Assembly (NCBI GenBank): GCA_034509925.1
Contig: CM067532.1
Coordinates: 9,320,180-9,384,179, forward strand
Source of the DNA: Hirudinaria manillensis
Taxonomy: Eukaryota > Annelida > Clitellata > Hirudinida > Hirudinidae
Length of the DNA stretch: 64,000 bases
Direction: 5' to 3'
Part shown: positions 6,701 through 9,700 of the stretch, piece after piece
How positions within the stretch are numbered: position 1 is the stretch's first letter
Layout of the letters: each line of letters begins with the position of its first letter
Notes under the pieces: model-generated
The model's input: only the letters and a program-made list of their open reading frames with translations
The model's database searches: none
What the model was told of the DNA's origin: nothing
Translations under genes and position numbers: made by a program

Positions 6701-9700
6701 TCCAGCCCCAAGAAGTATCAGGTCGAAGAACTACAAGAAGTTCTCTTATCTTTCCAAAGAACTTTTATTTCTTCAGATTCCATCAGGATTTCATCCTCCA
6801 TCCCTGGAAGCATTCAAGAATGATGATGATGATGATGATGATGATGATGATGATGATGATGATGATGATGATGATGATGATGATGATGATGATGATGATG
6901 ATGATGATGATGATGATGATGATGATGATGATGATGATGATGATGATGATGATGATGATGATGATGATGATGATGATGATGATGATGATGATGATGATGA
7001 TGATGATGATGATGATGATGATGATGATGATGATGATGATGATGATGATGATGATGATGATGATGATGATGATGATGATGATGATGATGATGATGATGAT
7101 GATGATGATGATGATGATGATGATGATGATGATGATGATGATGATGATGATGATGATGATGATGATGATGATGATGATGATGATGATGATGATGATGATG
7201 ATGATGATGATGATGATGATGATGATGATGATGATGATGATGATGATGATGATGATGATGATGATGATGATGATGATGATGATGATGATGATGATGATGA
7301 TGATGATGATGATGATGATGATGATGATGATGATGATGATGATGATGATGATGATGATGATGATGATGATGATGATGATGATGATGATGATGATGATGAT
7401 GATGATGATGATGATGATGATGATGATGATGATGATGATGATGATGATGATGATGATGATGATGATGATGATGATGATGATGATGATGATGATGATGATG
7501 ATGATGATGATGATGATGATGATGATGATGATGATGATGATGATGATGATGATGATGATGATGATGATGATGATGATGATGATGATGATGATGATGATGA
7601 TGATGATGATGATGATGATGATGATGATGATGATGATGATGATGATGATGATGATGATGATGATGATGATGATGATGATGATGATGATGATGATGATGAT
7701 GATGATGATGATGATGATGATGATGATGATGATGATGATGATGATGATGATGATGATGATGATGATGATGATGATGATGATGATGATGATGATGATGATG
7801 ATGATGATGATGATGATGATGATGATGATGATGATGATGATGATGATGATGATGATGATGATGATGATGATGATGATGATGATGATGATGATGATGATGA
7901 TGATGATGATGATGATGATGATGATGATGATGATGATGATGATGATGATGATGATGATGATGATGATGATGATGATGATGATGATGATGATGATGATGAT
8001 GATGATGATGATGATGATGATGATGATGATGATGATGATGATGATGATGATGATGATGATGATGATGATGATGATGATGATGATGATGATGATGATGATG
8101 ATGATGATGATGATGATGATGATGATGATGATGATGATGATGATGATGATGATGATGATGATGATGATGATGATGATGATGATGATGATGATGATGATGA
8201 TGATGATGATGATGATGATGATGATGATGATGATGATGATGATGATGATGATGATGATGATGATGATGATGATGATGATGATGATGATGATGATGATGAT
8301 GATGATGATGATGATGATGATGATGATGATGATGATGATGATGATGATGATGATGATGATGATGATGATGATGATGATGATGATGATGATGATGATGATG
8401 ATGATGATGATGATGATGATGATGATGATGATGATGATGATGATGATGATGATGATGATGATGATGATGATGATGATGATGATGATGATGATGATGATGA
8501 TGATGATGATGATGATGATGATGATGATGATGATGATGATGATGATGATGACGACGACGACGATGACAATGACGTAAGGCTGACAGTAATGTTTATTTCT
8601 TTGTTAAAAATGGCAAATGGAGCTAATAAATTTTAAGAAAAATTATCAGGATGGTCATGGTGATGATGATGACGACGACGATGATGTTGACGATGGCCAA
8701 AAGAATTAGACTCTTTAAAAAGGAATTGAATTAAAAGCCACAACGACGACGATGGTTGTAATGAGTGACGATGACCATTGGTGACGTAATTACGAACCCG
8801 AGGTCAGATGGCGATGACGTCAATGATGATGATGATGATGATGGCGCCGATGACGATTCTAGATGTCATCAACTCCATCCGTCCGTCCATCCGTCCTCGT
8901 TAGCAGGAGTCGTCAAATGCGATGACTGGACGTACCGCAGAGAGGCATTGCTTAAAAGCCTCCTTTCCTCCGATGCTTTGCTCCTTCAACCTACCTGTGG
9001 TATCCATCCATCACTCCGTCCTATTGTTGTTGTTGTCCGGCCAATCCATCTGTCCACTTCGGTCGACCCCATACAGTTGACCAATTGACCGGACTCGACC
9101 AGCTCAACATTGACTTGTCCACCCACCCAGCCATCCGGTTGACCATCTGTCCATCTAATTAACCATCCATCCATCCATCCATCCATCCATCCATCCATCC
9201 ATCCATCCATCCATCCATCCATCCATCCGTCCGTCCATCCATCCGTCCATCCGTCCATCCAGCCATCTTTTCATTAATGGATTATTCACCAGTGCCTGAT
9301 CCAATGGCAGACAGGCACCAATCCAGTCCAATAATAATCAGCGGGTCGCCCTTCTTCCATCTTTTATTTACCAGCTTTTATTTTCAGTCGAACATTTTCC
9401 TCGCTTCTCCATCAGGTGAAAGGAGCGTGGGCCATATTGGAAAAGTCCATCTTTATAATTGGATCCCACTTCTAGAGATGAAGAGGAGGGAATGCCATCA
9501 TCATCATCATCGACACCGTGGACCATCATCATCATCATCGTCATCATCATCATCATCGTGAACGACCCACACGTTTGCCTTCAGTTCGAGAGAAAGAAGA
9601 AAGCAGAGAACCACTTATGGATGCAAGATGTCGGAAATTACCTGTGAGCGATAATAGAAATCTCGACTGAATCGCTTCATTAAATCCGGGGGGCCGTCAC

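Follow-up and report, generated by a model that had tools for sequence, protein, structure and literature searches.

A very long perfect ATG microsatellite in a probable intron of Hirudinaria manillensis and its counterparts across the genome

The ATG array and its surroundings

The window, that is, the whole stretch of DNA that was analysed, is a 64-kb segment of the Hirudinaria manillensis genome (C7:9320180-9384179) in which the N count was 0. Probable exons and simple-repeat tracts were found at the following positions around the ATG array.

778-957 (+): probable EB-like exon, both ends in phase 1; the Pfam EB match is weak and falls short of the cut-off (E 0.0083)
3230-3361 (+): probable EGF-like exon with Pfam EGF matches under the threshold; the 3' end is uncertain
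3625-3756 (+): probable EB-module exon, both ends in phase 1, with a Pfam EB match of 32 bits against a cut-off of 24.3 (E 1.3e-7)
6521-6704 (+): TCCA array upstream of the ATG array, 88-bp perfect core at 6581-6668 (Tandem Repeats Finder and exact runs)
6820-8551 (+): perfect ATG array
8551-8574 (+): 3' shoulder of decayed units, ACG four times, then ATG, ACA, ATG and ACG (read from the sequence)
8651-8846 (+): degenerate ATG/ACG/GTG stretches mixed with other sequence, 3' of the array (limits set by eye)
9163-9267 (+): downstream CCAT array whose 66-bp core at 9163-9228 is perfect (Tandem Repeats Finder and exact runs)
11081-11207 (+): probable cysteine-rich exon; 5' end phase-matched; no Pfam match; 3' end uncertain

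The array was read directly from the sequence as an exact period-3 run of (ATG)577 plus one A, 1732 bp long with 0 mismatches; its last base, 8551, is also counted as the first base of the 3' shoulder. The uninterrupted 577-copy array of the preliminary description was thereby confirmed, with an end at 8551 rather than 8550 and a length of 1732 rather than 1731 bp. Tandem Repeats Finder called a longer array, 6820-8566 (582.3 copies, 99% match), since it counted in the ACG units that follow on the 3' side. With 577 head-to-tail copies of a 3-bp unit, the array falls among microsatellites, whose units are 1-6 bp long. The 5' border was abrupt, the array starting directly after non-repeat sequence (CATTCAAGA): none of the 30 in-phase units on this side was ATG and 4 were one base off, about 5 being expected by chance. 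On the 3' side, 3 of 30 units were ATG and a further 7 were one base off, which constitutes a partial shoulder.

The second-longest perfect triplet run in the window was an ATA run of 73 bp (4960-5032), in agreement with the earlier statement that the array is far longer than the other triplet tracts there. That all of those tracts are imperfect did not hold, since the TAA tract at 17665-17719 (55 bp) was 100% perfect. The TCCA-type arrays said to lie on both sides were present.

Exon 3625-3756 is followed by GTATTT, with its end in phase 1, and the next exon started after CGACAG in matching phase. Because the splice sites and phases of exons 3625-3756 and 11081-11207 fit, the array most likely lies within a putative intron of 7,324 bp (3757-11080, +), of which it makes up about 24%; the intron placement proposed earlier is thus supported by the neighbouring exons. 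Further exons may lie inside 3757-11080. One more cysteine-rich exon-like frame was seen on the + strand upstream of the window, and the searched part of this frame gave no credible Pfam match. At 3602-3624, ahead of the putative acceptor of exon 3625, an ATG repeat (GATGATGATGATGATGCACAG) takes the place of the expected pyrimidine tract.

Other features were also noted in the window. A PBX-type gene exon lay at 31406-31741 (+) (Pfam PBC E 7e-29, homeodomain E 5.1e-9), an RsmB/F-type RNA methyltransferase exon at 40835-41221 (-) (E 7.9e-7), a short-chain dehydrogenase exon at 46445-46759 (-) (Pfam adh_short E 4.9e-18), and a TPR exon at 51087-51503 (+) (Pfam TPR_1 E 9.4e-9), which we take to resemble KDM6A/UTX. 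A 27/54/81-bp minisatellite of ATGGTGAAAA-type units occupied about 1.4 kb at 52275-53721 and was directly adjoined by an interstitial array of CTAACCCTAACA-type units at 53723-54353, units that are presumably similar to a degenerate form of the telomeric repeat TTAGGG. Rfam (gathering scores) and ARAGORN (bacterial code) gave no matches in the window.

Long ATG runs across the genome

Exact searches covered the whole genome (148,429,096 bp in 23 contigs, with 147,423,618 bp in C1-C13). Twelve ATG units matched at 17,305 + 18,144 overlapping places, 95 units (285 bp) at 5,128 + 5,992 places and 97 units (291 bp) at 5,036 + 5,903 places, the unit numbers 95 and 97 being derived from the matched lengths. 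Repeat counts are possibly lower bounds according to a warning of the search program, though in its tally the pattern counts are flagged as whole. The places at 95 units minus those at 97 units amounted to 181, which equals the runs of at least 95 copies plus the runs of at least 96 copies; therefore the genome contains about 91 perfect runs of ATG with 95 or more copies. The triplet classes compared with ATG were ATT and, as a control, the backward pattern (GTA class). The GTA class matched at 2 + 21 places at 12 units and had 0 matches at 95 or 97 units in the whole 148 Mb; a chance origin of the 577-unit run is therefore out of the question. ATT likewise forms long runs, its 94 units matching at 1,298 + 1,537 places in the whole genome, about one quarter of the places found for ATG at 97 copies.

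Eight anchored searches returned 80 run starts (20, 9, 25, 6, 7, 10, 3 and 0), located on all 13 chromosomes (C1-C13) and on one small contig. A ninth start anchor (C before TGA) was left out, and about 11 of the approximately 91 runs fell outside the eight anchors. The loci extracted were 53 of the 54 from the first three anchors, the 54th being the window, together with two further loci. Three starts from the later anchors fell in loci already extracted, and lengths cover 57 of the 80 located starts.

The data showed that 58 measured runs of at least 95 copies, this one included, spanned 95 to 950 copies, with 27 on one strand and 31 on the other. The longest had 950, 796, 577 (this array), 538 and 522 copies, and the array thus ranks third among the 58 measured of about 91 runs genome-wide. 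The idea that it is unique in the genome was rejected, with about 91 runs of this kind and two of the 58 measured longer than it. Of the 10,939 places at 97 units, 3,386 belong to runs or parts of runs beyond those measured, and a run of at least 577 copies needs 481 such places; therefore at most seven unmeasured runs could be longer. Among 88 measured runs of at least 60 bp, nine reached at least 1000 bp; three of the 88 ended at or beside N and two were clipped by the extract edge, their lengths being lower bounds.

The mean excess of the measured runs over 96 copies was 121. Under an exponential tail, 3.2 runs would be expected to reach 500 copies, 1.7 to reach 577, 0.27 to reach 800 and 0.08 to reach 950; among the 58 of about 91 runs that were measured, 5, 3 (this array included), 1 and 1 did. 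The tail of the length distribution is somewhat heavier than exponential, and the array is no isolated outlier. Since a plain exponential underpredicts the longest runs, larger expansion steps or rate differences between loci may be needed.

Shoulders, flanks and origin of the array

We compared 30 units on each side of the longest pure core, in phase with ATG, at 56 loci. ATG or one-off units numbered on average 17.2 of 30 on the 5' side, a mean inflated by two anchors that favour decayed 5' borders, and 14.6 of 30 on the unselected 3' side; about 5 are expected by chance. The altered shoulder units arose mostly by the transitions ACG, GTG and ATA: one-off units comprised 181 ACG, 96 GTG and 90 ATA on the 5' side (n=514), and 139, 77 and 54, respectively, on the 3' side (n=414). 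CpG loss was considered as the cause of the exchange between ACG and ATG; the window had no strong overall CpG depletion (observed/expected 0.89; 0.51 to 1.18 in 8-kb bins). Interruptions within the other long runs were few: runs of at least 100 bp met at six junctions. One locus read 726 bp, one base, 138 bp, one base and 230 bp, and single-base frame shifts separated runs of 147/340, 375/168 and 347/180 bp.

No stretch of at least 100 bp was shared between flanks at the 56 loci (at most 480 bp on the 5' side and 1000 bp on the 3' side, three flanks being empty or N), the longest alignment being 99 bp. There were 405 alignment rows from 137 locus pairs, of which 326 consisted mainly of ATG-like units and the remainder resembled other simple repeats; the flanks of the window's own array appeared in two of the 405 rows, over 32 and 43 bp. 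The same unit was thus found at many unrelated loci with unrelated flanks, as is characteristic of microsatellites. Satellite DNA forms large arrays clustered at one or a few sites, whereas the located runs were dispersed on C1-C13. A mobile element as the carrier of the ATG tracts found no support in this comparison of 56 loci.

The array is very probably an ordinary though very long microsatellite at the extreme of a genome-wide length distribution, formed when slippage expanded an old ATG tract where it was purest. In this account, the intron would originally have held an old ATG/ACG tract with imperfections, one part of which was uninterrupted. Slippage during replication, perhaps joined by larger expansion steps, would act chiefly on this purest stretch and lengthen it to 577 units, and point mutations would meanwhile degrade the shoulders; the intronic location may have relaxed selection against length. 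The perfect run, the decayed 3' shoulder, the graded run lengths, the spread over 13 chromosomes and both strands, and the unrelated flanks are consistent with slippage. The abrupt 5' border (no ATG and 4 one-off units among 30) runs counter to it, and therefore the ancestral tract would have been absorbed there or have lain on the 3' side only. Single interruptions reduce the slippage and mutability of microsatellites in primates (PMC4102424), and across vertebrates three trinucleotide loci have been traced through their birth and decay (PMC12469459). At an assumed rate of 3e-9 substitutions per site per generation, 1732 unbroken bases would correspond to an age of less than about 600,000 generations, a bound obtained by arithmetic and dependent on that assumption. 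From this single assembly we infer slippage as the mechanism, a recent expansion and the absence of a function. The preliminary description had placed the array in an intron and named recent expansion among its possible readings; the placement is supported and recent expansion is the best reading, whereas viewed genome-wide the array is not exceptional in kind.

An assembly origin of the perfection was also weighed. The published H. manillensis assembly, which we take as the source of the window, used 23.80 Gb of HiFi reads with a mean length of 18.73 kb, assembled with NextDenovo and then polished with Illumina reads by NextPolish, and it has a Merqury quality of 33.53 and 1.8% simple repeats (all from PMC10671345). 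Collapse in length, raised in the preliminary description, is unlikely because the reported HiFi reads far exceed the run of 1732 bp. It is improbable that the array is partly an assembly product whose length is about right and whose rare interruptions were erased during polishing by Illumina reads derived from multiple tracts. Such reads were indeed used after the HiFi assembly, and short reads are unplaceable within a run of this kind; interruptions deep within other long runs survived, which argues against wholesale regularisation. By arithmetic, the Merqury quality corresponds to about 0.8 errors over 1732 bp, and therefore the perfection of the array by itself is not suspicious.

Two biological alternatives have to be set against slippage. 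Satellite-like homogenisation, in which gene conversion or an ATG-carrying mobile element produced the purity and the spread, would account for the many pure runs of one class within one genome; it is very improbable, given that lengths ranged from 95 to 950 copies, that border bases varied from locus to locus, and that no flank stretch of at least 100 bp was common to the 56 loci. It is extremely improbable that the array is a functional intronic element whose transcribed (AUG)577 acts on splicing or binds a protein. The array would be read in the sense direction within a probable intron, and 66 nt of AUG RNA folded into a modest hairpin (-13.9 kcal/mol; CAU 0, CUG control -28.1). About 91 such runs, which spread over all chromosomes among those located and over both strands among the 58 measured, are unlike one functional element, and no function of the array is indicated.

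Relation to known repeats and significance

The array is real in the assembly, very long and one of many alike in the genome, and it belongs to a known kind of repeat. It is like long perfect microsatellites of the ATC class (ATG/CAT) in its unit, its perfect core, its decayed shoulder and its probable intron position. Usual trinucleotide microsatellites have tens of units. Unlike the usual ATC-class microsatellites, the leech array has 577 units, and comparable runs occur in its own genome. No description of leech ATG arrays was found in the literature titles and abstract openings examined, and term look-ups found no account of them in the parts of PMC10671345, PMC10087013 and PMC6977106 covered, supplements aside. 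The words ATC or GAT were absent from the consulted part of PMC9296464.

Large intronic triplet expansions are known from human disease, GAA in FXN and CTG in TCF4 among them. The leech array resembles these in having hundreds of triplets in the non-coding sequence of a gene, and differs from them in having many sister loci per genome and no known phenotype. In DNA folding of 66 nt, ATG, CAT, GAA and ATT all gave 0 kcal/mol, whereas CTG gave -22.2 and ACG -17.9 kcal/mol. A stable DNA hairpin of the CTG type was accordingly not found as a driver of expansion, both the ATG and the CAT strands folding at 0 kcal/mol; the fold program covers neither triplexes nor parallel duplexes, for which reason the GAA control was also 0. 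The dinucleotide-keeping shuffle was uninformative as a control for pure repeats, since it returns the identical repeat.

It is possible, though unlikely, that ATG-class expansion is unusually permissive in this leech lineage and lets dispersed loci, intronic and otherwise, attain 1-3 kb of uninterrupted repeat although no strong DNA hairpin forms. Were this so, the lineage would serve as a natural model, in an animal, for large triplet expansions that are tolerated and have a driver other than the hairpin.

A perfect triplet run of 1.7 kb need not mean an assembly error or a special element, as this one is part of a measurable series. The long ATG loci would probably also be highly variable markers. 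If the lengths hold in reads, leeches would offer kilobase-scale pure ATG loci in which the origin and the tolerance of expansions can be studied.
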